From contig NC_054877.1 in assembly GCF_018320785.1 (NCBI RefSeq), forward strand, positions 7,673,030 through 7,737,029: a DNA stretch of 64,000 nt, read 5' to 3'. A program made the translations under genes and the position numbers. How positions within the stretch are numbered: position 1 is the first letter of the stretch; every line of letters starts with the position of its first letter. This document shows, piece after piece, positions 9,370-60,033 of this stretch. This DNA comes from Cheilinus undulatus. Its lineage: Eukaryota; Chordata; Actinopteri; Labriformes; Labridae. Below the pieces are notes generated by a model. That model saw only the letters and a program-made list of their open reading frames with translations. It was not told where the DNA came from and searched no databases.

Positions 9370-12300
9370 GTAAGTTTTTCATTTGTTGGTAGTGAATGTT
9401 TAAGTTAATTTTGTATCTTAACTTCTGGTTCCTGAAATTACTCTTAATTTGTTCTTATTCATGCTGCTTCAATGGTAAAGTTATTAAGAAACAGTATATT
9501 TTGATGGATTTTTGAGCTTTGTCATGAATAGTTCCCTTGTTATTGGTAGAGCTCCTGCTGTACTATCTAGAGCTTAGAAGCCTACAAGCAAGAGAGCAGG
9601 TGCAGCCATTACCAAAATAACGGCACAAAGATGAAAGATAATAGAGTTACAATTAAAGTTTACAACTATGGAAGCCCAGAGTGGACAAGGCTTGTTGTCA
9701 ATGTTTCTTTTGCAACTCTAGGGATCCAAGATAAAGGAATTCAAGATTTTAAGGAAAGGATGAAAAGATATTTGATCACAGGAAAACAGAGTACTTTAGG
9801 ATTTATCACATAAGTAAGTAACGTTACAAGTGCCACAGTCTTATTTTGGGGCAAATCCACTGAGAAAAACAAAAGTTTACACTTTATTTTGGCTGTGTAA
9901 TGATTTCCACAGAGTTCAGGAAAAGTCCTCCATGTGCAGCTGTGAGAAAGAAACAAAAAGAAAATTTTGCAAAAGAGAAACACCTCTTTAATGTTAAAGT
10001 CAAAACAGATTTCTACAAAATAATGTCCATAAAACAATCACAGCACTGAGTCTTTGTGGATAGGTCTCAATCAGGCTTGCACATCTGGACACTGCAATTT
10101 TTCTCCATTCTTCTTTGCAAAACTGCTCAAGCTCTGCCAGGTTGTACAGGGATCAGACATGAACAGGCCTTCTTAAAGTCTAGCCACAATTCACTATTGG
10201 ATTGAGGTCTGAGCTTTGGCTCTGCCACTACAGAACATTCAGCTTGTTGTCTTTAAAATATTTATGTAAAGCTTTAGTTGTATGCCATGAGTAATAATCT
10301 TGCTGGAAAATAAATCTTCTCCAAGCCGTGGTTCTCTTGCAGACTGAATAAAGTTGTCCTCCAGGATTTTCCTACATTTTGCCACATTTGTTTTACCCTC
10401 TACCTTTACAAGCCTTTAGGGGCTGGCTGTGAGAAGCATCCCCAATGCATGATATTGCCACCACTGTGCTTCACAGTAGGCATGGGGTGTTTGTGGTGAT
10501 GTGCAGTGTTTGGTGTCTTGTCTGATGGCCAACAAGCACCATTTTGGTCTCATGAGACCAAAGAACTCTCTTCCACTTGACCATGGAGTCTCCAACGTGC
10601 CTTTTGGTGAACTCTAGTCCAGATTTAATCTGAGTTTTCTTCAACAGTGGCTTTATCTTTGCCACTCTCCCAAGTTTTGACTGGTGAAGAACCGGGCCAA
10701 CAGTTGTTGTCTGCAGAGTCTCTTCCATCTCAGCTGCTGAAGCTTGGAACTCCGTCAGAGTAGTCATAGGTGTCTTGGTGGCGTCTCTCACTAGTCTCCT
10801 TCTTGCACGCTCACTCAGTTTGTGAGGACGACCTGATCTAGGCAGATTTACACATGTGACATATTCCTTCCATTTCATTATGATGGATTTCACTGGACTC
10901 TGGAGGATGGTCAGTGCCTTGTAAATTTTTTGTATCCATCCCCTAACTTATACTTTTCAATAACCTTTTCTCTAAGTTGTCTGGAGTGTTCTTTTGTCTT
11001 CATGGTGTAATGGTAGCCAGGAATACTAATTCACCAATGTCTTGACCTTCAAGATTAAAGAGTTTTTTTATGTAAAGTTGTTGTTTTTTTGCCAAAAAGC
11101 CATATTATATTGACCATGACTGATTTAAAAAAACAGTAAAAGGATAAAGCATCCAAAGAAGTACTACTTTGTGAAGGTACATTTTGTACGTTTTATAATA
11201 TGATGGTCGGGCTCACAGTCTACAGCTGTAGTTGTGAAGTAGTCCAATGCTGCTCTCCTCTGCTCACCTTTTAATAGGAAAGTATTCCCAATAAAACCAT
11301 CAGTCTACAGTATCACCAGTCTATGACTGTTTTTGCAAAGCAGAATTGTTATCTCATGAGAGAGAAAAGCAGCTAAAGAGTGGCACCACCAGCCTGGTCA
11401 GTATCAATGTGCATCTTAGCACATTTTAGCTGCAAAGCATCCATTTACAATAAAAATGAATTACTTTGCTTCAGGTTGTGAGCAGTGGGTGATGGTGGCT
11501 GACGCTGAAAAGCTAATGGATTAGTCAGTTTAACACTAGCACTTCCAGGGATCTCTACGTACCTAGAACAGCCAGCAGGTAGACTTAATTCTAGCCATGC
11601 ATTGTTTGGACCTACTACTGCTCTGTATTTAACATCTTTTTTATATCACAGGTAAAATCTGGTGGATGCTGATGCTGCTTTTACGTCTTATTGTCCTCCT
11701 CATGGCCGGTTTCACCCTCTACAGCGATGAACAGGAGCGTTTCATCTGTAACACCATCCAGCCGGGCTGCTCTAATGTATGTTTTGATGTTTTCGCTCCT
11801 GTGTCCATCTTCCGCCTCTGGCTCTTCCATCTCATCCTCCTCTGTCTTCCTCATGTGCTGTTTGTAACCTACATCATGCACAAAGTCATATCAGGATTTT
11901 ATCCCAGTTTTGGAGGTTTCTACTTCAACAGGAGCCGAGGAGGTTCACCCTTTGAGAACTCGAGCTCCTCCAGAGAACTGTCTTTGCACAAAGCTCCACT
12001 CCATGAAGTCCCACGTGAGTGGGGAGTACCACGGTTCTACTGTGCCTACCTCCTGGTTATTGTTGTACGGATCCTCCTGGAGGTGTTCTTCAGTGCGGGG
12101 CAGTTTTTTCTCTTCGGTTTGTCCATTCCCAAGAGCTTCCTCTGCTATGAAGCTCCCTGCACGTCTGGGGTTGAATGTTTCATCTCCAAACCGACAGAGA
12201 AGATGCTGATGCTCAACTTCATGCTGGGAGTTTCCTCCTTGTCTGTTCTGCTGAGTTTGTTTGATCTGATGAGCTCCATGAAGGCGATGGTGAGTTGGAG

Positions 12301-12769
12301 GAGGAAGAGGGAGATGCTGTTAGAGGAGATGAGTAAAGGTGAGCAAAGCAGCGTGTTTACAACAACCACGACTGAAGACAGTGATGTTCCTATAACCAGG
12401 AGAGTCAGCCTGAGTGGAAGCTCAAAGAACGGTGTGAAAGATGAGAAACATGCCGCTCCTGCTGGAGACCCTCTTCATGCAAAAGTCAACAATGGTGGAG
12501 CTTTAATAAAGCATGAAGACTCGGCACAGGAGCATCGGCCAGACAGCAGAGACGCTAGACCGGACATGTCTCCAGCACCTACTCATTTTGTCCCCCACAG
12601 CCATCTTAGACCTCCAATGTCCCCTCGCCCTGACAGGATCCCACCACCAAACTCCAGGGCTCCAACACCCATGGGTGTGAGAAAGCTTGGCCAGTTTCCT
12701 CCAGCTGCAGCGAGCTCAGGCCAACAGTCTGACAGCAGTGACTCTCAGGACAAAAGGGCATGGGTGTGA
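9306..12769 (+). CDS. gjd4: Connexin, gap junction protein delta 4-like
   Basis: Two coding exons, 9306-9369 and 11652-12769, join in phase through a split Gly codon and give 393 residues. The delta-group intron after FVG in the N-terminus is diagnostic. The protein has four hydrophobic spans. The first extracellular loop has three Cys in C-x6-C-x3-C ([12 protein letters not shown]) and the second has [13 protein letters not shown] Ser/Pro-rich cytoplasmic tail follows M4. Connexins form hexameric hemichannels that dock into gap junctions. It lies next to ccny as human GJD4 does. The N-terminus is unusual: ATG codons at 9306, 9312 and 9315, and two residues fewer than usual before the FVG block if the third is used. 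Confidence 0.93.
10036..11187 (-). mobile_element. Degenerate Tc1-like transposon, copy B
   Basis: A reverse-strand 140-codon open stretch (10471-10893) carries the paired-like DNA-binding part ([20 protein letters not shown]) and the start of the DDE domain ([15 protein letters not shown]). It is closely related to copy A. It fills about half of the gjd4 intron, has no intact transposase and has blurred ends. Confidence 0.85.
11652..12769 (+). CDS. gjd4: gjd4 coding exon 2
   Basis: Acceptor TCACAG at 11651. It carries [20 protein letters not shown] (M1), both extracellular loops, M2-M4 and the whole C-terminal tail. The stop is TGA at 12767-12769. Confidence 0.95.
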
Positions 12770-22003: not shown

Positions 22004-22172
22004 TAGCAGCGGTCAGTCGCTAAAGAAAAAAACAGCCGCTTCCGTGTTGTTCTTGTGTTATTCTGGTTAATAACTGCCGTTAGCAGAGTGGGAGCTCGTC
22101 TGACAGCCTCAGCCGTGAGTTTATCATGATTCTGTAAAGCTGACTCGCACTTTTAGCCTTTTTTCAGCCAAA

Positions 22173-24816
22173 ATGTCGCTGCTACAGAGCTCAAAGAAGA
22201 AAGACAAGCGTATTTTGTCTGGTACCTGCCCAGACCCGAAATGTCAGGCGAGGCTCTTCTTCCCAGCTTACGGCTCCATTAGCATCGAGTGCACGGAATG
22301 TGGACAGCGACACGAACAGAAGAGCCTGTTAAATGTGGAGGAAGTGACTGACCCTGATGTTGTTCTCCATAACCTGCTTAGAAACGCCCTGCTCGGCGTC
22401 ACTGGGGCCCCGAAGAAAGGCACGGAGCTGGTGAAAGTGATGGGGCTGTCCAACTACCACTGCAAGCTGCTGTCTCCCGTTCTCACCCGGTATGGAATGG
22501 ATAAACAAACCGGGAAAGCCAAACTGCTGAGGGAGATGAACCAGGGGGAGATGTTTGACTGCTCCCTTTTAGGTGACAGGGCTTTCCTCATTGAGCCCGA
22601 CCATGTCTCCACTATGGGCTATGGTAAAGACAGATCTGGGAGCCTTATCTACCTCCATGACACTCTGGAGGAGGTAAAGAAAGCCAACAGCAACAGAGAA
22701 TGTCTCATCCCTGTGCATGTGGATGGAGACGGGCACTGCCTGGTCCACGCCGTGTCCAGAGCTCTGGTTGGTAGAGAACTGTTCTGGCATGCCCTGAGAG
22801 AAAACTTAAAGCAGAACTTCAAGCAGAACCTGGACAGCTACAAGGCACTGTTTCAGGATTTTATTGATTCAGCAGAGTGGGAGGACATCATTAACGAGTG
22901 CGACCCCCTTTTCATCCCACCAGAGGGCGTCCCGCTCGGACTTCGCAACATCCACATCTTTGGTTTAGCCAATGTCCTCCACAGACCCATTATCCTGCTG
23001 GACTCTCTGAGCGGGATGAGGAGCTCCGGGGATTACTCCGCCACCTTCCTGCCTGGGCTTGTAGCAGAGGAGCAGTGTAAAGGGAAGGACGGGAAGCTCA
23101 ACAAACCCATCTGTATCGCATGGAGCAGCTCAAGCAGGAACCATTACATCCCTCTGGTGGGGATCAAAAACAGCGTCCTGCCCAAACTGCCACCCCGCCT
23201 GCTCCCCAAGGCGTGGGGAGTCCCTCAGGAGCTCATTAAGAAGTACATCAAGCTTGAGTCTGATGGGAGCTGCGTGATCGGTGGAGACCGCAGCTTGCAG
23301 GACAAATACTTGATGCGGCTGGTCAACGCCATGGAGGAGGTGTTCATGGAGAAGCACAGCATCCACCCGTCTCTTGTGGCAGATGTGCATCAGTATGTTT
23401 ACAGACGCACAGGTGTCATCGGCATCCAGCCTGAAGAGGTTACCGAAGCGGCGAAGAAGTCTGTCATGGAGAACCGGCTGCACCGCTGCCTGATTTGTGG
23501 AGCCCTTTCCGAGCTCCACGTCCCGTCTGAGTGGCTGATTCCAGGCGGGAAGCTCTACAACCTGGCAAAGTCCACCCATGGCCAGCTGCGGCCTGATAAG
23601 AACTACAGCTTCCCCCTTAACAACGTCGTCTGCTCCTACGACCCTCACAGAGATGTCCTCATCCCTGATTATAAACTGAGCTCCCTTAACACCTGCAACT
23701 GGTGTCATGGCACCTCGGTGCGCCATATTCGTGGTAATGGGTCAGTGGTTTATCTAGATGGGGACAGAACCAACACCCGCTCCCAGGGAGGGAAGTGTGG
23801 ATGTGGTTTTAAACACTACTGGGAGGGGAAGGAGTATGATAATCTCCCCGAGGCCTTCCCAATCACACTAGAGTGGGGGGGCCGAGTAGTAAGAGAGACA
23901 GTGTACTGGTTCCAGTATGAAACTGACCTGGCTTTGAACAGCAATGTGTACGATGTGGCTATGAAGCTGGTCACCAAACACTTTCCTGGAGAGTTTGGCA
24001 GTGAGATCCTAGTGCAGAAAGTCGTCAACACCATCCTGCATCACACAGCTAAAAAGAACCCAGATGAGTACAACCCAGTGTCCATCGACGGTGCTCACGC
24101 CCAGCGTCTCACGGACACCACAGAGACCCCACAGGTGACAGACCCCCAGCCTCCCACTAAGATCATTCTGACGGGTCAGAAGGCAAAGACGCTCCACAAA
24201 GAGGAGCTTACAATGAGCCGAGCGGAGCGCAGCATCCAGCAGAGCATCAGTGAGCAGGCTTTGGTTTCCCAGAAAAGACGGACAGACAAACTGAAGCAGG
24301 AGCAGAAACCACACGCTCGAGCATCGTCTCCAAGCGGCTCTCCTGAAACCTCCTCCTCTTCTGCTCCAGCTACGCCCACCAAGTCCTCATCCCCATCATC
24401 TTCCAGTAAGGAGAAGAAGATCCGTGTGACCACCAATGACGGTAGGCAGGCCATGCTGACCCTGCAGGCCCACACCACCTTCTCAGAGCTGCAGAGGAGC
24501 ATCACCAACCAGTTCGGTGTACCACCAGAGCAGCAGTGCATCCGTTACGGCTTTCCACCTAAAGAACTGTCACCACCGAAAGACAGCGAGGAGAACGAGC
24601 CGGTGGCACTGCAGCACGGTGACAGGGTGACAGTGGAGATTCTGAGGGGCCCTGAGGATCACAAGAGCCCCGCCTCCTCCATACCACGGGCTTCAAGCTC
24701 GCACTCAGCGCTGCACTCAGTGAAGAGTGAGGACAGTGGAAGGATGAGCAGCCGGGAGCTTCAGGACAGCATCGACCTGGAGATGTCCTCCCTCTGTCTC
24801 CTCGCAACATTGATGG
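22173..24816 (+). CDS. vcpip1: vcpip1 coding exon 1 (OTU and UBX-like domains)
   Basis: One very large exon holds the catalytic and ubiquitin-like domains. The open frame runs on to 24857, but the GTAAGA donor at 24817 splits a Gly codon exactly in phase with the next exon, so residues after LLATLMG in that read-through are intronic. Confidence 0.95.
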
Positions 24817-27800
24817 GTAAGAAAGAAAAAAATCTAACATGCAGGTCAACTCCCTAATCCACATGAAACATTTTTTCTCCAAAACACAAAACTTACTTCT
24901 TAAAGATAAGTCAGACTTACCTTCTGTTGACATCCAGTCAACAAAAGGTAGCCAAAAGGTAAATTTAAATGAAACTGAATTAAATTTAAAAATAAACCTT
25001 TGTGTTTAAAATGTTTTCATTTATCTTTTTTAATCTAACACTGCAAGCAAACTTCTAAAATTGACTAAATACACCAGCATAATTTTGGTATTGATAGCTT
25101 TAAGCAATGTTCTGGAGCAAATGTGGGGCAGTGGATAAACAACTTCCATCCTAATGTGTCAGTGATTGCTGCTGAATGTTTCCTCTTATGCACCCGTCTT
25201 ATGAAATATATGTGCCAAATATTTTTCTGCGTGATGAATCACAAAATTCTTGACCTGTGACTTTGTCATGAGGAATGTGCAATATTATCAACTTGATAGC
25301 GGTATCAGCAGATGATAGAATAAAAGTTACATATTGGTATTGGCAGTTTTGACATTTTTGGAAATATTTACTGCTGATATATAAAAGGTAAATATGGGCA
25401 GAACAGAAGAATACCCAATGCTTCATCGTATAAGGTGGTGCATTATGTTTGTGAAGTTTTAAGCAGAACCAACAGAAGCTGAAGTTTGTTTTTAATTTTT
25501 ATCCTCATTTCTTAAACATCTAAAGTTTTGTTCCAAGGACTGAAGTTTAAGCTCTAAACCACAGCTAGGATGGCTGGGCGATACAGCCTTAAAATAAACT
25601 CTGATAGCTTTTGATATATTTTCTTTAAGGCCTTCAAAAAGACTAAACTAACAAAAAAAAGCAACTCAAAACAAGTGTTGCCTTATTTTATGAGCAGTAT
25701 TTAACAAAATGAATTCCACTTTTTGGGGATTAAGTGTACGCTGTAAATCTGTAACATTCAGATACCCTAGTGGAGATACATTCATACTTTTAAACTACTT
25801 AAAAAACTTAATTTACTTAATTTTACAGAACATTTCACATCACTTTACTTTTTTTTAGTATAACAAAGCTTATTTCCCTAAGATAATGAGGTAAAACTTT
25901 GAGAAAATACTAAATTCTCTGTTTTATTTAGGGAAAAATGAAGTAAATATAAAAATGTATGTATGCCCTTCTGTAAAGATGTGTTGTTAGATATAAATAT
26001 AGGTATATATTAATTACTTTAATTTTTATTTAGCCACGAGGTAAATCCCATTGAGATCAGAGTTATATTTGTAAGGGAGATGTTAACATGTTACCAACAA
26101 TAGTCAATCATCAAAACGGAGTCATCCAGAAAGAGTTTTCACTAAAGGTTTAAAAACCTTCAGAGCCACCAGGATTTTCAGTTTGAAATCAGTTTGCAGA
26201 TTGTTCTAAGCATAAGAGGCAGAAAACCTAAAAGCCTTTTTTTCCAACTCAGTTCAGACTTTAGAGACAACAAACTGTACAAAGTGAAACACAGGCTGTG
26301 CAAACCTTCAAGACCAAGAGAGAGGCAGTCTGAAATTTTTCCCAGAATGGCTTAATGAAGACATACCAATGTCCAAGACGAGGAGAAATTTAAAGAAGTC
26401 TAGTTGACTTTGAATATAATGAATTTAATGTTCATATGTAAACATTTTCCTCTCAGGGAACCACATCCTTGGACACCTGACGTGTCTTTAAACATGCACT
26501 ATGTAGTTTTAATTGCGTATTGACTGGCATTGTTGATGACTTGCAGCATTCAAAATTATGCAAATAGAGCAGCACTTAAGATGTTACTGCAACATACCAG
26601 GAGTTTAGAGGAAAACAGACAGACCACTAGTCGATGAATTGCAGAAGGTGAAATCCAGTGGATAACATAAAATTAGGGATGCACGGTATTGGATTTTTGC
26701 TGATGTCCAATATGCCGATAATGATATTTAAATATGCTTTTTGGACAAGAAATTTCAGTCCTTTTGGACACATTTTAAGGTTCAAGGATGACCAAGGAAA
26801 CAAACTTTAGTCTTTAAAAAACACTTTTAAAACTAACGTTTTAAGAATGATGATAAATAAAGAAAAAGACCTCAACTGACATAGGTCTGTTGGTTCAACC
26901 TAAAAATCCTCTAGTTTATTAGTATGTATGGACAAAATTTACAGTCGATATATCTCTGAAATACACGGGCAAAATATTGGATGTAAATATCAGCAGAAAT
27001 TTTGATATCTGCCGATACTGATGCCGATAATATCCTGCATCCCTAATTAAAATGCTTAAATGGCTTGCAGATGTGTTTTTTTGCGTGCTGAGGAAAGAAA
27101 GAAAAACCATGGTGGCGCACAAATGACCCGATCCAAGCTCATTCTGATGTAGCTTTTCAATCCAGCCTTTCCCGTACTAAACTGGGCAAATCCTGAAGAT
27201 AGTGTTGAAGTTCGAGAGAAAAATTAAAATTTTAATTTTTCAAAGTCTAGATTTTCTTTTTTAAATCTAGTTCTATCTATTTTAAAAATATCAACATACA
27301 CCAGCACTGTATTTCTTCTGTTGTTCTTCTGTAGTCTAGTTTGAGCATCATTTCTGTGTTAGGGTGGTGTTCATGTTTAAAGTGTTTCACCAGCTAGTAC
27401 AGTCCCAATATATGCATTTTAAATCTTACATGTAGCTCCTAGTAGGTGTGACATCCTCAGTAAAAGCCAGTTGTCATGGCAATGGTGTTTAAAAGGTAGG
27501 GTAACTTGAAGGATGAGGAGGAGCAGAGGGATTTAGTGACTGTTAACAGTGTGTTCAGTACCAAGATGTTACCAGTGTTTTTGTGCTGTGAGCAGGTGAT
27601 TGCTTACAATTTTGCTAAACATATTCCTTCCATATGCACCCAACTTAAGGTTAAAATGGCTTTTTCTAAAGCTTTGGTATTTTCAAACCGGATCAATCAT
27701 TAATTCAGCCCAGATTTTATTGTTTCAAAGCATGTGGTATTGAAGAATATCATACTATGGATTGGTTTAGCAGCTTTCAGCTGGTCCCTTATTTAGTGTT

Positions 27801-43929: not shown

Positions 43930-45769
43930 GTGAGGCATTCACTGACCGCTGTCTCTGTAGGATCACAGAGAGTTGTTTGTCTTTGATGCAGGAAGTCATT
44001 CTGTGTTACTGAGCTTCTGGTCTGTTTGATATTTCATCAGTCATTTGATTTATTTCACATATAGCATTTATGTCATTGTTTGTGTGCTAATTCTGTGAGG
44101 TGGGAATGATAAAAAAAAAAGATAGGACAATCCTCAGAAAAAATATATCTTGAAAATATATCATGTAAACTTAAAATGTGTCTGTGATTAATCATTTATA
44201 TTGACATTGCTTCTTAGAGGGAATATGTTTTTAATAGACATTAAGCTTAATTCTTTATTATTATATTATCTTTCCTGAGAACATAGGATTGCTATGTAAA
44301 AGAAAAGAAATCAAACAATATGATTAAAGGTGTAAATTGTGCATGACTTAAATGCTTAGACATTGAGTTTAACCAGATGGGGCCCCTTTAGGGAGGTTAC
44401 CTACTGTCATTGCACAATTTGTGGGATTAAAGATGTAATTGACAAGATTAAAGTGCATAGATGGTGAGTATAGTCAGATGGGGCCCCTTTAGGAAGGTTT
44501 TCTACTGTCATTGCAAAAATCCCACATTTTTAGCCACTTGAAAGAAAAACATTAATTTGTGGGATTGATGCTGCAACTCTATAAGATTGAAGGGGTAAAT
44601 TTAAGATCCTTTAGTCTTAAGTTTATAAGATTGGAGCATTTTTTAACAAGACTGATGTTATAAAATGAGATTGTCAATTAAGGATATAGATATTACTAAT
44701 GCACTACTAGCGTCACTTCATGGAATCAAGCTGGCATTGTTGTCTGAACTCATCTGTGTCAAAAGCTGCTAAAACATGTTGTCATATTTTTTCCATTATA
44801 TACAAATGAAATATGTAATTTTTACAGATTTATCTTTCTCTTAGTAGAATCCAGTTGCCCTTGAGAAGCGCCTGAGTAAGGAAGCCTGTAAGGGTCACAT
44901 CTCTAGGATGCTGCAGCTGTGTAAAGTCACCAAATGTCTCTTCATCAGTAACGCCCGCTCAGCCTGCAGCGACGAGCTCATCCAGCAGGAGGCGGTGACT
45001 CTCTGCATCAACGTGTCGAAGCAGCAGCCGTTCCCCTCTGCAGACGTTAAGAAGCTGCAGGTCCCCGTCTATGACGACCCCAACGAGGACCTGTACATGC
45101 ACTTTGACCGCTGCGCCGATGCCATCCACAAGGAGGCGAACCGAGGAGGACGCAGCGTCGTGTACTGTAAGAACGGACGGAGCCGCTCAGCCACCGTGTG
45201 CATCGCCTACCTGATGAAACACCGCAAACTGACACTGACAGAAGCGCTACAGGTCAGCTTCACCAGAAAAAAGAGCTAAATAGAAAGAATAAATGCATGT
45301 CAGCCCAAGCTATACGTTGATAATGTTGCTAATTGCTATAATCACTTCACAGACAAATTATTTTCGTCGAGCTCCCACTGTACCATGCTCTCTTGCACTT
45401 CTGCAACACTGTAATGCAGTGCAAATAAACAGATGTAGCTGCCAATAGTACACCATTGTAGGACCAGTATGAATGTCTTAAGATGTAATGATAGCAGAGC
45501 TTCATTACAGAACTGATGGGGAAATGAAACATGAATGTTTATCAGGCATTGTGTAAAAAGTAACAGCTATTTTAGTCCTTTAAAATGGACTTAACCTGAC
45601 TACTGGGTATGATCTTTACCAACACTTTTGACAACCTGACACCTGCTGCTGTGTTTGTCCTCAGAAGGTAAAGACAGCTCGTCACGTCATCGACCCAAAT
45701 CCTGGCTTCATGACACAGCTGCAGAAATACGAGCAAGAGCTGAAGAAGAGACGGGGAGAGGCAGACTGA
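43902..45769 (+). CDS. dusp28: Dual specificity phosphatase 28
   Basis: Exons 43902-43929, 44855-45252 and 45665-45769 give 176 residues, similar to the human protein. The phosphatase signature reads VVYCKNGRSRSA with nucleophile Cys114 and Arg120. The usual His before Cys is Tyr, as I recall for mammalian DUSP28, which fits a weak or atypical enzyme. Other matching blocks are VTLCINVSKQQPFPS, VPVYDDPNEDLYMHFDRC and DPNPGFMTQLQKYEQEL. The first exon (MGVTPSLCK) is inferred from phase; a shorter product starting at the Met at 44908 is possible. No neighbour suggests a shared function. Confidence 0.9.
44346..44516 (+). repeat. Tandem duplication, about 101-bp period, in dusp28 intron 1
   Basis: AGATGGGGCCCCTTTAGG begins at 44375 and again at 44476, followed both times by CTACTGTCATTGCA. 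The flanking TTAAA.TGC.TAGA words are also duplicated. Confidence 0.8.
44855..45252 (+). CDS. dusp28: dusp28 coding exon 2 (catalytic)
   Basis: It carries most of the phosphatase fold and the CKNGRSRS loop. Donor GTCAGC at 45253, phase 0. The 5' border at 44855 is chosen because it alone keeps phase with exon 1. Confidence 0.82.
45665..45769 (+). CDS. dusp28: dusp28 coding exon 3
   Basis: Acceptor CCTCAG. It encodes KVKTARHVIDPNPGFMTQLQ, then KYEQELKKRRGEAD and TGA. Confidence 0.92.
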   Translation, partial: KVKTARHVIDPNPGFMTQLQKYEQELKKRRGEAD

Positions 45770-48700: not shown

Positions 48701-51700
48701 AAAGCAGAAATAAACATTGTATTATAGTAGGGGAAGGGGAGCTGATTATCGAATAGCAGCTAGCAAGAAGCAATGCAAAAAAAAGAAGAAAAAAAACAGA
48801 AAAAATAGTTTAAATGGTTAAAATTACTAGCTAAAAGAAGGAAAAGAGTAAAATTGGGTATCTAAAAGCTATAGTGATCTAAGAGTGACAGAAAACTGTC
48901 AAATAGCACGCTTACAGAAAAAAAAACATTTGACAAATCACTGTCTTAAAATGGGAATACAGCTAATGGAGTGAACCTAAAGTAACAGAAAAGAATAGAT
49001 GCAGTACTATGCAGAACTTTGAGGCATGTTTGGGCCAAAAAACTGACTTTATATGTTACCAGTAGTATGTGAAAAAAAATCTGTTTAAAAATGAACAAAG
49101 TCCACACCTCTGGGCAGAGTAGGAAGTGAGTGAGCACAGTCTGGGCTACTGTCTGGGCAGGTAGTAGTGATGCCGCCAACGTCTCCAGGTGTGTTTACCA
49201 GGGGGTGAAAAGGCCTGGACAAAAGAGATGCAGTCCAGCGAGGGCCCTGTGAAAAGTTCCTAGTGCCCTACATGCCTTAAACTTGTGCACAACTGTAAAT
49301 CAAGAAAAACTGTCAAAGAAAAGCAAAGGAAAATAATTAAGAAGCTTGCAGGAAGAAAAGAAAGGGGGATTAAATTAAACAGCTGGCTATAAGTCATGGA
49401 AAAACAGTAATAAAAAGTTGTGGATAATTAGGTAAATAATAAATTAGTGCCTTCTAGTGCCTATTAAACGTGCTAGCTAAAAAAATAGGAGCAGTTTGCC
49501 AATTGAGTATCCTAAACAATGTATGGGAAAATATGCACTTTACTAAACCTAAAACTATTTGCAGTGTTTTATGGTATACACTAAGAATATATGGATGGAA
49601 ATTCCACTGTGAACTCATTAAATGTGGCTGTAGTTTCATGATAATGCTGCTGACAGTGTTTGCTGTAATTCTGTGAGTAACAATGGTTCAGTCGAAGTTT
49701 GTGAACTTTTCTCTGACTGGATGTTGATAGAAGAACACTACATGTTAGTAATGTGTGTGTGACTCTCAGGTCTTCATTTAGTGGTGCTGTCATTTAGAAA
49801 TAAATTGTAAATTCAACCTAAATGTAGGTATAGGCCACAGAGGCCCTAAATATGTGTGTGTAAATGGAGATGAAACTGTCGCTGTGCTAACTTCTGCTAG
49901 AGGTCTTGTAAAATGAAATAAAAAAATGTGTCAATGATTTGGAGCTTGGCTTTTCTGATGTTCCTCAATTAGTTGAAATCAAATTTGTTAATTGATGATT
50001 TCTTTGTTTTCATAACTAGTAAACAGGGTCACAAATTAAACTATAATAGTGATGTTCCCTTGCATTACTCCATTTAGGGCCCATGAGACAATACTATTGA
50101 AAATGCTTCATTTTAAGCTTCATAGAATGATTAACAAATGTCTTATACCAACATTGCAAGCTTTCTAAACTTTCCATGTGTAAAATGTGCACTACACAGA
50201 TTATTGCAGGGAGTTTGTTGACAGGCAGTGTTTATTAGTAGTGGAATCCAGTGAGTGATGTTCTCCTTTTTCAGTCTTAAACAGACTGTGTAATGTCAGA
50301 TACAAAAGTTCTTTAGGCTCAGCCCACTTTTATATGGAATTAAGCTCTTAATAGTGCTTTCTATACACCTAATCACAGGGTAGTTGTTGCTCAGTGGGCT
50401 TTAATCTCCAGCTGTGTTTGTCTAAGTGGCCTTCAGCCATTTTAAAACTTCATAGTCTGCATGTTGGTAAGATAAAAGCTAATATTTGTCTAATATTTAC
50501 ATGAAAATATTTCTGGAAGATTCCAGCAGCACAGATGCAGCCCAGAGGTGAAGTTCAATGACTAAATTAACAACTAACTGCAATGTTGAACATTTAACAC
50601 GGGGCTCTATGGGGATTTACTCACTTTTGGAGGCAGCTTGTACCAGGACTGCCCACAGAATTGTCTAGGAACCTAAAAACCCCAGAGAAAGGACCCTCCC
50701 CACTTTAAATTATTGATGACATCACGTGTGTTTGATGTGTGAAATTGGTGCTAAAGTCCTGGCTAACAGTTTTATCATTTTGGACCTGAAAAATGTCTCA
50801 AACTTTTATAGGGTTCTGAAGTTGGAAGTGATGATTTTTGCAACGTTTCAACAATTTTCCTACTTCTTTTTGCCCCTTTCTTGTTCATTTGAAATGTTTT
50901 TAATCCTTAAAGCCATCTTTAACCAACTTAGACTGCTTTCCACCCCTCCTAGCCACTTTTGACCAATTTTTGTTGTTTTTTGCACTCTAATGCATGTCCT
51001 TTGCCAATTTACACCACATTTTTTTGTCACTTTTTGCACATTTTTCTAATGTTTTGCCATTTTCCACCCATTGTTACCACTTCTTTAAGACACTTATTTC
51101 CCTTTTATGCCCATTTTTCTACAGTTTTGCCACTTTCTGCCAAATTTTGCTACTTCTTTTTGCCATTTCTGACCCATTTTGACTATTCTTTGCCCTTTGA
51201 TGCCACCCTCAACCAATGTTTGATGTTTTTCAGCCGTTTATCCACTTCCCCTGTTTTCTGCCACTACAATGTCAGTTTTTTCGCAACTTCACACTCATTT
51301 GTTGTCACTTTTCACACATTTTTTCATTGTATTGCCATTTTCAAACCGTTTTTGCCACTTCTTTAAGGCACATTTTCCCCTTTCTTCCTTTTTTTTGCCT
51401 ATTTTTTACTGTTTGTTACTTTCCACAAAATGTTGATTCTTTTTGCCATTTTGCCTGTTTTTTTCATGTTTTTTGCCATTTTTAATTCATTATGGTTTTA
51501 CTTTTCCCTTTTTACCACATTCAACAAATGTTTGATGTTTTTCCACAACTTTTAACTCACTTTTGCTGTAATTGGCCATCTAATTGCCAATCTTTTGACA
51601 CTTTACACCCAGTTTAGTCACTTCTTACCCCATTATCCACTGTTTTGCCACTTCACAAACATTTTTGGTACTACTTTTTGCCATTTCTAACCCTTTTTGA

Positions 51701-52551
51701 CTGTTTCCTACAACTTTTAATCTGTTTGTGGTGTTTTTCAACCCCTTTTAATCATTTTTTGCTGATTTTTGCACGCTTTATTGCCACTCTTTTCCACTTT
51801 ATGCCTGTTTTAGTTGCCTATAAACAATTTCTGCCACTTTTCACTGCTTCTTCTTGCCAGCTTGAACACAGTTTGCCTTTTTTTGGCTGTTTTTGCCACT
51901 TCCCAAATCATTTAGTTCACTGTGCCCATCCACATTGTTAACTTAACCAGTAACAAGCTTATTTTGTTTAGAAAAAAGGGGTTTACATTCTACAAGGCTA
52001 TGTTTGACCACAGCATTGATAAATCAAATTCATGTGTCTTGGCTTTCATAAGATTGGTATTATTCCGATTAAAGATAAGATATCTTTATCACGGCTAACT
52101 TTATAGTGGACTGTAATTTTGTTGACCTCCCTTTGGGGTTTTCCACTGCGAGTTTTGGCGGCGCCAAGCCAAACCAAGCTGTGCTGATTTGCTTTTCTAT
52201 CACCAGTTTGGCCGCGCCACGCTCAAAGCAGAGAGAGAATATGAAACAACTGCTTGCAGCACTGTCGGTCTACAGTTTGATTTTTGCTTTAACACGATGT
52301 AAAGTCAATCAGATCAGACAGAGTAAAGAGATTGAGGAGGGCTCAAAACAGCTAGGCCCCAGAAAGCTCTCTCTTTTATCACCCCTTGGTGGTGACTTAA
52401 AGAACTGCAGTTTTTAAAATCTTTACATTGATGAACTCATCTTTGCTGGCTTAGTTTTCTATCTGCTGTTGTCCTTGTTAACTGAACATTGCTGAGCTGA
52501 CAACACTGGAGGACAAACAAGGAAACCAAAGGTCAATTAGAGCAGGATGAG
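45770..52551. other. dusp28-proc intergenic region (convergent 3' ends)
   Basis: The two genes face each other, so this holds both 3' ends. AATAAA occurs near 46164 and 46198 for dusp28. The rest is AT-rich with no recognisable gene; its main structure is the degenerate array at 50840-51925. A hairpin-prone GC patch at 52135-52220 (GGCGGCGCCAAGCC ... GGCCGCGCCACGC) looks like a repeat end. Confidence 0.65.
50840..51925 (+). repeat. Degenerate pyrimidine-rich higher-order array
   Basis: About 1.1 kb built from short variants of TTTTGCCACTT / TTTTGCCATTTT. Larger units also repeat: AACCAATGTTTGATGTTTTT at 51211 recurs at 51523 and, weakly, at 50961. CCACTTCTTTAAG.CAC recurs about 275 bp apart. 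Long open frames here (for example 50959-51366) are by-products of few purines, not genes. Confidence 0.75.
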
Positions 52552-52643: not shown

Positions 52644-53212
52644 TCAGGCGTAATGACCTCTGTCCCAGTCGTCTTTCACTTGTTGGATCCAGTCGTTATA
52701 GTTGGACACTTTGGTGTAGATACCCAGCTTGTCTCTCTGGCCACAGCCCTCACCCCAGGACACCAGGCCGACCAGGAACCACGTGTCCCGGTACAGAGTG
52801 ACCATGGGACCACCGCTGTCGCCCTCACAGGCATCCTGCCTATCTCCCAGCCTCCCAGCACAGAGCATGTTGTTTGTGATGTTGTTGGTCATGTGTTGGA
52901 TGCAGACATCATGGTCCACCAGAGGGATTTTGATGATGTTGAGTGCAGAGGTGAACCTGCTGCTGTTCAGCTCTTCTTTGCCCCATCCCGACACCACGGT
53001 GATAGTGCTGTTGAGATGCAGCACTCGCTCTGCCATGGCGCGTCCTGGCAGACAAACGGGGAGGATGTACCGGGAGAAGGGGGCAGGGGTCTCAAGGCGC
53101 ATCAGTGCAATGTCGTTGTCCTGTGTCCTGCTGTCGTACTTTGGATGTCTGAAAGAGCGGAGGACCCTCAGAGTAACCTCAGTGCCTTCATCTCTGAGAC
53201 GGTCGTATTCAC
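52644..53212 (-). CDS. proc: proc exon 8 (Asp and Ser of the triad)
   Basis: Acceptor CCTTAG. It encodes [36 protein letters not shown] (Cys for the interchain bond), SGWG and GDSGGP, ending DRGHYA with TGA at 52646-52644. Confidence 0.96.
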
Positions 53213-56200
53213 CTAAGGAGACGTAGCACAGAAATGAACATCAGCAAAGTTCTAGTCACCAACTTTACTGTTTCCTGTATCTCAGCCGTTTGTCGGTCAG
53301 TACTGGCTCGGACGATAGAGACATTATCACACATTCACAGTGATATAAACTATTATCAACTTTCAGTGGAGTATAATTGAGTAAATCAAAGCTTTTCCCG
53401 AAAAAAGTAACAAATGACTTATGATTACGTGTTTTTTTTGGAGGCACCACCCCATCACTTTCACAGTTTGCAGAGCGGACACTCACCCAGCCGTACTGTG
53501 AATATCAGGCTGCTCTCAAGGCAGTGAGCGGCGGTCAGAACCCAACTCTCATCGATCAGGACGCCTCCACAGTGCAAACGCCGGTTAGCATTCCGTATCA
53601 AAACCTGCAAACGAAAATCCAAGAAAATCTGGCTGTAGATCTCAGATGCTCCACTTGCAAACCACTACTGTCAGAGCATGAATACATGCTAAAACTGTCA
53701 AAAAAATAGCACTAGTTAAAACTGTTTAACATTAGAATATATACAGGACTGCATGTACAAAATGACTCACTGGCATCCAATAATCCCTGGTTAAAATGAC
53801 GGTATTTAAACTTCTCAGGAGTTTAACTTTAGATGCTATCCCTGTGCAACCAAATCAGTTAAGGAAGATATTTTCTCAACAACCTGCTCTTTATTATGCT
53901 TTTACTTTGTTATTTGCACTGTCTTAACCACAAGAACTTAACTTCCTGTTTGAATAAGGAACCTGCTCTATTGAAAGCTGCATAATTGGCTCAATCGTGG
54001 GCAAACAAGAACTTGCTACAGATTGAAAAGTCAATAAAAGTAGCAAAAAAAGATGGTAAAAGTCTGAATTAATATCTTCTTTTTATTTTTTCTTACTATA
54101 AGAAGGCTTTTGAATAGATGGCTGTTGCTGTAACATGAGTCAGTTGAGTTTAGGTAAATTTATTTGCTCTATACACTGTTGAGTTACCTGCCATGGATTC
54201 TCCCCCTTCTTCCCCACTTCCCCCGCCACCATCCAGGGAAGCAAGCCATCCATTGGTTTGGTGTATGATGACCGACCAATCAACAGCTGACCACAGGATC
54301 TCTGACCTGCAGAGATAGAGACAGGGAGCAAAAGATAGGTGGTACTGTACGTACTTAGGTTTGAATTTACGTCTTTTGACATCACAGCTTTTCTATAATC
54401 TTTCTATTCTGTAATTTCTCACCATCGGGCACACACTTCCTGGAGTTATCATGCAGCGTGTATCCGCTCACACAGCTGCAGCTCCTCGACAGCCCGTCAC
54501 TGCTTTCAGAACAATCGTGGTCACAGCCGCCGTTATCCTCGGTGCAGTTAGTAGCTGTTACAGCTGAACCACAACAGAGCACAGAGATTTCAACAACAGC
54601 TCATTTTTAACCTCCTAAGACTCTGCATGTACAGTGCTTAACAAATTTACTAGACCACCTGCCATATTTGTCTGAGAGACCATCCAGCATCATGAAGTGC
54701 TTTAATGCGGACTCTTTCATTTTCAGTAAACTCTCCACGTTTTACTATTTTGAACAGGAATGAGGAATTTCAAACTGAATTCACCCAAATTTGAGCCGAG
54801 TCACTGGGCTTCTCTGAGAAGTCAGAAATTAATCAATCATAACATTCAACCACTAAAACTCATTTTCTGTTCAGGAATAAGAGTAATTAACTATAATTTG
54901 ACATTTTAATCAAGAAATAATAATGTGCTTTACTATTTTTTCTTTTTTTTTGTGTAAATCAGTAAATTTCAAAATTCATAATAGTTATATTTTATCATTA
55001 AAAATATCATTTGGGTTAAAGAGCTTCTACATATTGGTGTATTAACCATTGCAGAAACATAAAAAATGATTTTGGTAATTACCAATGCTGTTAATTTAGG
55101 GCAGCTGTGGCATAAACCTTACTTTGGTTAGGGTTAGGGTGGTCTAATAAATTTGTTAAGCACTGTACATACAAGGACATTACAGTTTGGCTTCCCTTCC
55201 TCAGAGTTGACGCTGAAGTAATTTGCTTGAAATGGTGGGAGAATTCACTCTATATTTCAGGAATTCTTGTGGACACTTAAGGGAATTAGTTTGGAGATTT
55301 TGGGAAATTTACTTAGAAATTTTCAAGTATTTTCCTTGACATGTCGGGGACATGGTTCTATATGTTGAAGTTTCACTGAAAATTTTGGGGGAAATATGCT
55401 TTGAATGTTTTATGGCATTTATGTGGAAATTTGGGAAATCTACCTGGATATTTTTGGAAATTTGTTTGGAAATTTTCAAGCATTTCATGGAAATTCATGT
55501 GTAATTTTTGGGGATGTAACTGGAATTTTTTGGAGCAATTTGCTTTGAGATTTTGAGGAATTTTCAAGAAAATTTGGGAAATTTCTTGTTATTTTTTTAG
55601 GAATGAGATTTGGAATGGTGGGCGGGTTCCTTTTAGATGTTGGATATTTTATGGCCATTTCAGGGATTTTCATTTTTTATTGATTTTTGAGGTGGTGTTT
55701 TTGCAAATTCTTTGGAATGTTTTCAGAAATTTTAGGGTGAATATGCTTTGAAATTTTAGGGCATTTGCTTCAAAAATTTCAGGCATTCATCTGGAATTTT
55801 TGGTTATTGTTAATGGAATGCTGAGGCTTTATATGACAAATCAGAAACAGTTGGGTAATATTTAAAGAAATCTGAATTTACTTTTAATGGGTAGTTTTCA
55901 CAGATTAAAAAAAAAAGCCCATTTTAGGTCATTTCTGTTGATTTTGGAAAGAAAAAATACAAGAAATTTTGTCATATAATGGAAACTTTGTTTATCCTTG
56001 TGGTCCATCATGAAAATAACAAGAAAAGTGATTCCAGTGTTGTAGTTCTTGAGTCCAAGACTCAGACTCCAGTCTACCTTAAGTCCTTATCTGGAGGACT
56101 GAATAAACTGTTTATTCCTGGTTGCTCTGAATGTGAGAGGAAAACCTCTAATCATGTATGATGTTTCTTCCGTCTGACTCACGTTCTCTGCAGTATTTTC

Positions 56201-59200
56201 CCTCATACCCGGGTCTACAGTTGCAGGCGTATCCTTGGTACAAATCCACACAGTCGCCATGAACACACATGTTGTTACTACACTGGTTCCCATCTGAAAT
56301 AACATGAGGTTATCGCGAGGAAACTCAAGATTCTCATATCAGTTCATATCTGTGCATATCAGTTACATACCTGAGTACACGGTCCAAAACTCCAGCTGAA
56401 AAGACAACAATAAAATCAGTAAAGATGCTACTTTAATGTATCTGGTTTAACATTTCTTTAAGGTTATTTTCTTCATTTTATATTTTTATATATTTAAGTT
56501 TTATTGTGTTTTTTATTGGGTTTTCAGAGAGATACAATGTTTACATTGCTTGCACTCATAAGGGATTTTGAGTTTTAATGTGTTTTTGCTGACTTTAAAT
56601 TTCCTACTAAATGCTCTGTCTTAAACTCTGTGAAGCACTTTGAATTGCTCTCAGTATAAATAGTGCTCCTCAAACAAACATGTCTGACAGAAGCAAAAAA
56701 ATCAGACAAGACAACAGTAGAAAAGTAACTTTTGAGTTCTCTGAGGTAAAACTACCTCATCATGACAATCTCTAAACAAAAAAACATTTCTATGATACTC
56801 AGCCTTTCAGAAACCAGTCCTTCTTTACTCACACTTAGAGCCAGATCCACAAAAAATTGTGCAACTTTTGCATCCACTAAATCTGTGCAAGTGAGAGAAA
56901 TGTTGGTGTGCAAGTCACAGTGCATGTGCAAAGGCTGAATCAGTGTAAACTACTCGGCGAAGCAGACATCATCTGTGTGTATCTGTCAGATTTGCATGCA
57001 TGTAAATGAAGAAATGTTTGAAAATCCCCCAACCCGAGCACAAAACTGTTCTGTTCCTACACAAACAAGTGGTCACATGCTGGCTTGTGATTAAAGCGGA
57101 TCCTTTTGGTGCAATTCTTAGTGGTTCAGTCTCAGAGGATTTTGTTTAATTAAACACTCACAGCTGCTGTTTTAGTTCAGTCTGCTTCTTAAATCCTGTT
57201 GACCTCAATCACAGGTCTTCAGTAAGGAGGAGGCAATGTCACCAGATAAACAGATCAAGTGGTTCAAATATCCATTGTAGAGATATATTTCCTTAATGTT
57301 ATAATTATTGATTTTAACTCTGTAAAGCACTTTGAATTGCTGTACATTCATCTTGGAAAGCTGTTTGTCACATTCATGATGAACCAATCAGAGCAACAAG
57401 ACAAAATGATGTTTTACATATGTGCTTCTCTTGAGCTGAACAGTTACCGCTGCTGTAGATTGTTAATAGTGCAGCTTCACTGTGAATAAAATTGATGCAA
57501 AGGCCAGTAGAGAGAAGTGCAAAAATGTCTACTCTTCCGAGACAGGCTTTTAGTGTGGCTCTATACTCTTGTTTAAAAAGAAATGTGGCCCAGTTTTGAT
57601 TAAACTGCCGCTTTCCTGCTGCTACATCCGAGCTAATAGTTACTACGGCAGCAGCCATTGGTTACTCCTGCAAACTCCAACCGTAGTGATCACAAAGCCA
57701 TGCTGAAGCAGACCGGGTGAAGAGCAAAAACACCTTTCCCTTAATGAAAAGCTTTTAGTGTGTTGTTTTAATTTATTTCATGCAGAAATGTGGTCCAGTC
57801 CTGGTAAAACTGACGCTATGCTAGAGCTGTATCCGTGCTAACCGCCACACTAGAGGCAGCCATTGCAAACAGCTTTCAGTACAACTAAACCCCACCCATA
57901 GCTACCGCCTCGTCCTTTTCAAATGATGCTAATTGGTCCGAACAGAGTTTGGTCCTGCGCAGTCCGTGTTGATTGGACCTTTTCGAGGTTAGAGGCCATG
58001 GGTTCTGAGGTTAGACCAGTTGAGAGCCACGACTCTAAAGCTGAAACACAAACACAGAAAAAGGACTTGTTCTCACTGTGGCCTCTCTGGATAGGAAAAT
58101 CTCCCAGGCTTCTTCAAAATCACAGACTTCCTCCACACATTCTCGCTCCAGAGACCCCGGCTTCAGCTCCTCGAAGAAAGAGTTCGCCCGGCGAGAACGG
58201 AGCAGCATGTGAGCCTTCGGAGGGTCAGAGAACACTGAGCAAACACAAAACATGAAGATGATTTTAGCATTAATCTATGTAGTTAATGTTATTGTAAGAC
58301 CTTTTAAATCTTCTGTTCAGTTAGGTCATTTTATTTGCTATTATATCTGATTGTGCAACAGCATATAATGGCCACAGTAGGTCTAAAAATAAATTATTAC
58401 AAAGCCAGGGATGGGGGTGACACTCAAAAATGGTGGAAAAAATGAACAATATCAGTTTTTGGCTTTCATATTATAGCTGCAAAATATCTTAATTTCTTAA
58501 AATTTAGACTACTAGTACTGAACCTTGGAGGTTAGATTTTCTGTTTGACCTGACCGAGGTTCCCCAAAGCCAAAAGCTGGGTTGAGCCAGAATTTCTGGC
58601 CCTTCCCTTGGACCCACTTTGGGTTGGAAAATAAGGGGGTCAAAGGCATCTTGTAATACATAGCAGCATTACTACATCCTACCCTAAATTTTTCAGATTT
58701 AGTCTTTTTTTCTTGTAATAACATCCATCTCTGATTCAGTTCTTGATTTTCATGGACAGGATCTCGAGGTGCAGCAAGGGACAGGAGGGTTTTCGGTTGG
58801 GTGATCTCAAAATTCCGTTTCTGCTTTTTGGAGATGATGTTGCTCTGTTGGCCTCTTCAGCCGGGGACCTCCAGCAGGCACTGAGATGGTTTGTGGCAGA
58901 GTCCAAAGCGGTCGGGATGAGGGTCAGCACCTCCAAGTCCGACACCATGGTTTTCTGCCAGAAAATGATGGGTTGCTCCCTCTGGGTGGGGAGAGTGCCT
59001 TTGCCCCAAGTGGAGGAGTTCAAGTACCTTGGGGCCCTGTTGACAAGTGAGGTTAGAAGAGACCATGAGATTGACAGGCAGATCATTGCAGCATCTGCGG
59101 TATTGCAGACGTTGTACCATACTGTTGTGGTGAAGAGTAGGCTGAGCCGGAAGGCAAGACTCTAAATTTACTGGTCAATCTTCGTTCCAACCCTCACATT

Positions 59201-60033
59201 GACCCAGAGATAGGGTGTAGAGCTTGGACATCTGGAAGGATCTTGAAGTAGAGCTGCTACTTCTTCACGTTGGAAGAAGCCATTTGAGGTGGTTTGGGCA
59301 TCTGATTAGGATGCCTCCTGGTTGCCTCCCTGTGGAGGTCTTCCGGGCTCTTCAAACTGGAAGGAGACACTGGGGTAGACCCAGAACTCACTGGAGGGAT
59401 TATATATCTCATCTGGCCTGGGAATGCCTCTGAATCCCCCAGGAGGAGCTGGGAAATGTTGCTGGGGAGAGGGATGTCTGGGTTGACTTGCTTAGCCTGC
59501 TGCCACTGTAACCCGACCCCGGATAAGCAGAAGAAAATGGATGGATGGAACTTCAGGACAACTTTCCCTCAGTGCAGACCCACTGCACAACTTACAACTA
59601 GAGATGCACTGCCCAGCTCCAGTAGTCATGTTCCAAGAATTATGAACTCTTTTCAATACAAACTACACTCCAATCATAAACATTATATCAGTTTTTTGTG
59701 GAATACATTTTCTTGATATACTGAGAGAGAAAAGCTGTTAAAAAGTGGTGCCCAGCCTGCTCCGCTGTGTGAGCACACAGTGATACAGTGCATAAAGGAA
59801 GACAGAGATGGAGCTAGGCCAGCAATAATGCACAGGTGGAGGAGTAACAAATATTTCTGCTCTAATGACTAAGAAGTGTTGTCGTTTGTCAAAAGACCCG
59901 CCCCTAAAATATGTCGTTTGATTTGAGCTCCATGACTGTCTAGCTAATCTACTCATGACTCACCCGTTCGACAGAGAACGGATGCTGACCACAGAGAACT
60001 GATGACGGACAGGTAGAGGAGGAGGCGTGGCAT
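52644..60033 (-). CDS. proc: Vitamin-K-dependent protein C-like serine protease, altered activation site
   Basis: Eight exons in phase give 436 residues (human 461): signal/propeptide 1-39 ending RSRR; Gla domain from Ala40 with the standard nine Glu; EGF1 (about 89-120) with the beta-hydroxylation pattern [15 protein letters not shown]2 (about 128-167); linker Cys173; protease domain with His235 (TAAHC), Asp281 (NDIAL) and Ser380 (GDSGGP); Asp374 for Arg/Lys specificity. [17 protein letters not shown] with [14 protein letters not shown] distinguishes protein C from factors VII, IX and X. In the family, liver secretes it; thrombin-thrombomodulin cuts after Arg, and the active form inactivates factors Va and VIIIa. 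Here the expected site reads LLPW/MVAGE, with Trp193 where Arg is expected. It could be a duplicated, divergent teleost copy. Confidence 0.93.
53487..53604 (-). CDS. proc: proc exon 7 (catalytic His)
   Basis: Acceptor TTGCAG, donor GTGAGT. It encodes [20 protein letters not shown], then [19 protein letters not shown]. Confidence 0.95.
54188..54306 (-). CDS. proc: proc exon 6 (activation region)
   Basis: Acceptor CTGCAG, donor GTAACT. It encodes [20 protein letters not shown], then [19 protein letters not shown]. The codon before MVAG is TGG (54235-54233). The only nearby basic residue is the Lys of TKP, which is followed by Pro and is a poor trypsin-type site. Confidence 0.94.
54423..54563 (-). 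CDS. proc: proc exon 5 (EGF2)
   Basis: It encodes [20 protein letters not shown], then [20 protein letters not shown]. Two in-phase acceptors lie 9 nt apart (TTCAG before 54563 and AACAG before 54554), so the start is uncertain by three residues. Confidence 0.88.
54632..55165. mobile_element. Tc1/mariner-type MITE in proc intron 4
   Basis: Its 28-bp terminal inverted repeats, both starting CAGTGCTTAACAAATTTA, differ at only one position. They are flanked by TA on both sides (54630-54631, 55166-55167). The 534-bp interior has no transposase. A short (GGTTAG)n run lies just inside the right repeat. Confidence 0.92.
55225..55810. repeat. Degenerate GGAAATTT/TTTTGG array in proc intron 4
   Basis: About 0.6 kb of variants of GGGAAATTT.CTTGGAAATTTT repeated with drift. 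On the proc transcript strand it is very C- and A/T-rich and G-poor. Open frames rich in Asn-Phe-Lys-Pro on the minus strand are by-products. Confidence 0.75.
56183..56293 (-). CDS. proc: proc exon 4 (EGF1)
   Basis: Acceptor TTTCAG, donor GTGAGT. It encodes [20 protein letters not shown], then [17 protein letters not shown], with six Cys. Confidence 0.95.
56371..56395 (-). CDS. proc: proc exon 3 (25-nt micro-exon)
   Basis: Acceptor TTTCAG, donor GTATGT. It encodes LEFWTVYS plus one base. The size of exactly 25 nt and the FW motif match the aromatic-stack exon of Gla-containing clotting factors. Confidence 0.93.
57545..57860. repeat. Tandem duplication, about 200-bp period, in proc intron 2
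   Basis: GCTTTTAGTGTG ... AAATGTGG.CCAGT...AAACTG.CGCT ... GCAGCCATTG occurs twice (from about 57547 and 57750) with moderate divergence. Confidence 0.6.
58077..58234 (-). CDS. proc: proc exon 2 (propeptide end and Gla domain)
   Basis: Acceptor GCTCAG, donor GTGAGA. It encodes [20 protein letters not shown], then [24 protein letters not shown] precedes mature Ala, and Glu falls at all nine usual Gla positions (6, 7, 14, 16, 19, 20, 25, 26, 29). Confidence 0.96.
58740..59560 (+). mobile_element. Non-LTR retrotransposon 3' fragment (reverse transcriptase)
   Basis: It encodes [20 protein letters not shown] (the YADD-type catalytic box reads FGDD), then [20 protein letters not shown]. After a stop it continues with [20 protein letters not shown] and [19 protein letters not shown]. 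The tail is AAAATGGATGGATGGA. Truncated at 5' and broken by stops, it lies opposite in strand to proc, between proc coding exons 1 and 2. Confidence 0.85.
59964..60033 (-). CDS. proc: proc exon 1 (signal peptide)
   Basis: ATG at 60033-60031; [20 protein letters not shown] then CRT plus one base, a convincing signal sequence. Donor GTGAGT; joins in phase to Val-Phe of exon 2. Confidence 0.88.

Follow-up and report, generated by a model that had tools for sequence, protein, structure and literature searches.

A tryptophan in place of arginine at the activation site of an otherwise intact protein C gene in the fish Cheilinus undulatus

How would a protein C be switched on if the residue at which it is normally cut were no longer an arginine? 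Thanks to the arginine at P1, thrombin can restrain its own formation by way of protein C, and in zymogens of the chymotrypsin fold the new N-terminus must arise exactly at the activation site in order to pair with Asp194. We encountered this question in a 64,000-nucleotide stretch of contig NC_054877.1 of Cheilinus undulatus, referred to here as the window, for which a sequence-only reading had proposed a protein C gene with Trp at P1.

Reading of the spliced sequence gave a complete protein C gene on the minus strand, from 60033 to 52644, with 8 coding exons and 7 introns. The coding sequence of 1311 bases encodes 436 residues and a stop codon, and all 7 introns have GT and AG ends. Coding exon 1 was located by scanning the region upstream of the Gla exon for an ATG, a hydrophobic core and an in-phase GT donor. 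The features of the gene are as follows.

59964..60033, minus strand: coding exon 1, signal peptide; the sole candidate passing the scan, which splices into one open frame
58077..58234, minus strand: coding exon 2, propeptide with its RSRR end and Gla domain; Pfam Gla 64.4 bits, nine Glu at Gla positions
56371..56395, minus strand: coding exon 3, 25-base connector (LEFWTVYS) with AG/GT borders
56183..56293, minus strand: coding exon 4, EGF-like 1 with the beta-hydroxy-Asp motif, from sequence reading
54423..54563, minus strand: coding exon 5, EGF-like 2, from sequence reading
54188..54306, minus strand: coding exon 6, linker and activation site; acceptor CTGCAG, donor GTAACT
54233..54235, minus strand: P1 codon TGG (Trp193), within coding exon 6; Arg in five of the five paralogues read in the same genome
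53487..53604, minus strand: coding exon 7, catalytic His235, from sequence reading
52644..53212, minus strand: coding exon 8, with Asp281, Asp374, Asp379, Ser380 and the stop codon; best PDB match the protein C heavy chain, 202.9 bits

Residue positions are sequence counts to which 24 was added to cover the signal-peptide exon with its junction codon, and Asp374 was counted from the sequence. The frame had been described as intact, and we found no frameshift, internal stop, lost splice site or lost intron in it. With eight coding exons, seven introns bounded by GT and AG, and an open frame, a processed or decayed pseudogene was ruled out. The intron that separates coding exons 1 and 2 contains, on the opposite strand, a reverse-transcriptase fragment (RVT_1, 32.0 bits; 58722-59162, plus strand), and degenerate TTTTGCCACTTTT-type repeats were seen by eye over about 1 kb downstream of the gene (about 50900-51900, plus strand). 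Elsewhere, the window holds a Tc1-like transposase fragment (10474-10947, minus strand; HTH_Tnp_Tc3_2, 45.0 bits) and, on the plus strand, a connexin exon that we take to be gjd4-like (11633-12766; 198.9 bits), a long open exon coding for a VCPIP1-like deubiquitinase (22119-24854; VCIP135_N 281.9 bits, OTU 45.9 bits) and a dual-specificity phosphatase exon, presumably DUSP28-like (44848-45276; 79.5 bits).

The domain order signal-propeptide-Gla-EGF-EGF-trypsin is present (Pfam Trypsin 211.5 bits), with both EGF modules near the Pfam cut-offs: EGF at 21.6 bits (cut-off 21.5), and the second EGF as FXa_inhibition at 32.8 bits, just below 33.4. Compared with PDB chains, the protease domain scored 270.7 bits with protein C, followed by factor Xa (1kig, 214.3), FIXa (190.4), thrombin (184.7) and FVII (177.7); for the last exon alone the protein C score of 202.9 bits stood against 157.2 in the same comparison. 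The fish and human proteins (PROC) share the Gla-EGF-EGF-trypsin order, 124 of 229 aligned protease-domain residues and stretches of 16 and 15 residues, while identity was 97/230 with FX and 92/228 with FIX. At the 120 positions that set the protein C chain apart from both FX and FIX, the fish residue is that of protein C at 40, of FX at 21 and of FIX at 21, the FX and FIX chains from PDB being taken as human in these residue comparisons. The light chain alone differs in scoring slightly better with FVII (124.4 bits) and FX (123.4) than with protein C (117.5). Judged by its protease domain and domain order, the gene is of the protein C lineage, and the identity given to it by the sequence-only reading is thus supported. 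Searches for protein relatives in viral and genome contig collections gave 1 and 26 pattern matches, none of them confirmed. The last-exon DNA had two weak Rhizobium matches among plasmids, covering 17% of the query, which we regarded as uninformative.

The spliced protein confirms that P1 is tryptophan rather than arginine: the codon TGG (complement of 54235-54233) encodes Trp193, the residue that immediately precedes the new N-terminus expected in LLPW/MVAG, where the slash marks the activation site. Human protein C, which is activated by thrombin-thrombomodulin, has Arg at P1 and Leu at P1', a dibasic light/heavy chain processing site and an acidic activation peptide. The fish site differs in its Trp at P1 and Met194 at P1', and neither the dibasic processing site nor the acidic activation peptide of a thrombin-activated protein C is present. 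Its linker before Trp193 is 21 residues long, with one Arg, one Lys, one acidic residue and no dibasic pair; the basic residue nearest to Trp193 is the Lys, eight residues upstream, and two dibasic pairs lie close by, RK163 within EGF2 and KK201 downstream of the site. At P1' the five paralogues read in the same genome have Val, Ile, Leu, Ile and Ile, so the Met of the fish protein C means that the change at the site goes beyond a single base. Because the N-terminus must form exactly there, trypsin-like enzymes, thrombin included, should not activate the zymogen at Trp193 and would not be expected to make the correct N-terminus from LLPW/MVAG. Pro suits the P2 position for thrombin, and Pro at P2 followed by Trp at P1 resembles a site of the chymotrypsin or chymase type. 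We also considered an alternative activation exon within the window, and a scan of both strands for a single activation-site pattern matched the known site only.

The catalytic parts of the protein are retained. The earlier reading had listed His235, Asp281, Asp374 and Ser380 as kept, and we find each at the position given (chymotrypsin His57, Asp102, Asp189 and Ser195), together with Asp379 (Asp194). It had also listed all Gla positions as kept, and this holds for nine of nine Glu, with the positions assigned by the numbering that we take from human protein C. The propeptide ends in a basic site (RSRR before ANSFF), EGF1 has a beta-hydroxylation motif, and there are 15 cysteines in the light part and 7 in the heavy part. 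At 62 of the 66 protease-domain positions that are identical in the PDB chains of protein C, FX and FIX the residue is retained; of the four exceptions, the one at residue 326 adjoins an alignment gap. By its residues, the protein is therefore predicted to be an S1A protease with a catalytically competent set, and by its nine Glu and basic propeptide end a vitamin-K-dependent Gla protein. Measured against its best PDB match, the last exon scores 202.9 bits (protein C), compared with 186.6 for a FIX-like exon (FIX) and 190.3 for a FVII-like exon (FVII) of the same genome, where the FIX and FVII top matches may be variant chains (other entries: 182.9 for 1rfn, FIXa; 176.6 for 1cvw, FVIIa). This comparison is a relative control that would miss a recent change. 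On these scores the catalytic exon appears at least as conserved as the FIX-like and FVII-like exons, with no sign of long-term relaxation.

Five vitamin-K-dependent protease genes were recognized among the Trypsin matches in the genome: three on contig C24, with three Gla exons, one on C12 and one on C10. Arg is at P1 in all five activation sites. FX was not identified among these five paralogues, and prothrombin lies outside the set read. The third C24 gene (about 748.5-752.5 kb), for which factor VIIi-like is presumably the right name, keeps its Arg (VQTR/LVGTNHCPRGECPWQ) and has RGDDGSP in place of GDSGGP, so that the catalytic Ser is apparently Asp. It and the fish protein C are alike in being vitamin-K-dependent proteases of one genome, each altered at a catalytic step, and differ in which step that is: the C24 gene keeps the activation Arg and has a changed Ser, and protein C shows the reverse. 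An intron of the C24 gene (about 748.8-750.0 kb) contains a minisatellite-like array in which RESLDICPVSSDPLRLTLPIEG-type translations repeat at intervals of mostly 183 bases per frame in three frames, and the array unit is therefore about 61 bases.

A second, normal protein C gene could do the anticoagulant work and leave the present copy free to drift. Zebrafish has two proc genes, which speaks for such an arrangement, and a search of this genome for a second proc copy with Arg had been proposed in the sequence-only reading; the searches made found none. A 376-base query covering EGF2 and the activation exon, run against the 1,173,462,691-base genome in 46 contigs, matched itself alone. A trypsin-family search of the genome gave at least 173 matches (150 of 486 candidates scored), with the window's own exon sixth among the matches listed; the other seven of the best 8 are only 28-42% identical to the protein C last exon, and two of those seven have FIX and FVII, respectively, as best PDB match. 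A tandem second copy was found neither in the rest of the window (tblastn) nor past its upper edge, where the next 29,971 bases hold no protein C exon. These searches turned up no protein C gene in the genome besides this one. A divergent second copy is unlikely from these sequence matches, and we consider it highly improbable that another gene has taken over the anticoagulant role.

The substitution has a counterpart in people. Human residue 169 is, we assume, the P1 residue of the activation site. The sequence-only reading had linked the Arg-to-Trp change there to human protein C deficiency, and the literature agrees: R169W is R211W, c.631C>T, a deficiency variant termed type I in one report (PMC5056495) and also described in another (PMC8520241). 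According to the first, R211W was present in 6 of 2953 Korean controls and 14 of 500 VTE patients, with genotyping where anticoagulant activity was low (PMC5056495). The second describes a homozygous newborn with activity below 10%, antigen at 20% and purpura fulminans (PMC8520241). The low antigen in this case indicates that something besides failed activation contributes to the human defect. Human and fish share the same C-to-T substitution; in humans it is a rare disease variant of type I, with low antigen and low activity in the homozygote, whereas the fish Trp is the reference state of one genome assembly.

These observations bear on a strong rival to an evolved change, namely an event at the level of the individual. 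The sequenced fish may carry a rare loss-of-activation allele, or the consensus a base error, while the normal protein C of the species has Arg (CGG) and is activated by thrombin. That TGG is one CpG transition from CGG, as the sequence-only reading had pointed out, is supported and agrees with this account, as do the Pro at P2, the intact remainder of the gene and the low frequency at which the same variant occurs in humans (PMC5056495; homozygous newborn, PMC8520241). The Met at P1', the lack of a dibasic pair and the lack of an acidic activation peptide argue against it, since with these the site has diverged beyond one base from the human features. Two weaker points can be added. The neighbouring long exons are open from stop to stop (connexin, 378 codons; VCPIP1-like, 912 codons), which disfavours indel errors and not base errors, and the 376-base query found no second haplotype copy of the stretch in the assembly, where a collapsed assembly would show none anyway. 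We regard an allele or error as a serious possibility, though on balance a doubtful one.

A fixed loss of activation would have a different outcome. The protein might then circulate as a permanent zymogen in a non-proteolytic role, its Gla and EGF domains binding membranes or partners, or competing with other vitamin-K-dependent factors. The expectation that no trypsin-like enzyme forms the N-terminus is in keeping with such a role, and so is the C24 paralogue with its changed catalytic Ser, from which it follows that non-enzymatic members probably exist. The retained active site, S1 Asp and Asp194 partner speak against it, as does a catalytic exon as conserved as the FVII-like and FIX-like genes, unlike that of an old decoy. 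A permanent zymogen therefore seems to us unlikely.

We tentatively place first, at somewhat below even chances, the reading that the Trp is a real, established change and that the zymogen is activated by a chymotrypsin-like protease. It is put first because the site is altered at more than one place while the catalytic machinery has been kept. Trp193 would be fixed in the fish, and we infer from the one assembly that it may extend beyond the sequenced genome to the species or clade. A protease that cuts after aromatic residues, of the chymase or chymotrypsin type, would cleave LLPW/MVAG and free Met194, which could serve as a working N-terminus and pair with Asp379 (chymotrypsin Asp194). A long-dead activation site beside a fully kept active site would be hard to explain without another activator. 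Activation at an aromatic site, which the sequence-only reading had not considered, accounts for the retained active site better than a decoy of long standing would.

Precedents for such a site come from other systems. In insects, serine proteases whose P1 residue is Phe, Tyr or Leu are reported as substrates for chymotrypsin-like enzymes, and Trp is not among the residues named there (PMC10036332). They are alike in having an activation site that lacks Arg or Lys and different in being arthropod enzymes that are not vitamin-K-dependent. Genes related to chymase are present in bony fish, and the chymase of the opossum has a preference for Trp at P1 (PMC4646688). For zebrafish, a further study reports no detected anticoagulant activity of TM-b in an assay with human protein C and states that a protein C had yet to be identified in this species (PMC6709559); this result is compatible with activation by an enzyme other than thrombin and is no evidence for it. 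Among the papers listed in searches of the open-licence literature, judged by title and opening of the abstract, we found none on the activation residue of a fish protein C, and the activation-site sequence string had no match in that literature.

In favour of an evolved aromatic site we count, as sequence features, the intact gene with canonical splice sites, its triad, Asp189, Asp194, Gla-position Glu and 15 + 7 cysteines, and the reverse pattern in the C24 paralogue; by analogy, the insect proteases, the fish chymase-related genes and the opossum preference may be added. Against it we count that a single CpG transition is a common point change which recurs in people, that a P2 Pro suited to thrombin would be expected if P1 had been Arg until recently, that the opossum preference is no evidence for a fish enzyme, that the Trp comes from one assembly, in which fixation, an allele and a base error would look alike, and that protein C is not the best-scoring match of the light chain taken by itself.

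Either protein C is switched on by another route in this fish, or activation of the sequenced copy is impossible. The Trp observation itself is strengthened by the sequence comparisons in the same genome, where no rescuing copy was found and all five paralogues read have Arg. Given a single apparent protein C gene whose active site is intact and whose P1 is not Arg, the thrombin feedback loop would not be universal in vertebrates, or else the fish gene would be the natural equivalent of a deficiency variant that is severe in humans. More specifically, and with rather less confidence than for an evolved change as such, we suggest that this protein C may stand outside thrombin control, with LLPW/MVAG as an aromatic site for a chymase-like or chymotrypsin-like activator, perhaps from granulocytes or mast cells. 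If this unlikely proposal were true, anticoagulation in this fish would be tied to inflammation and not to thrombin feedback.
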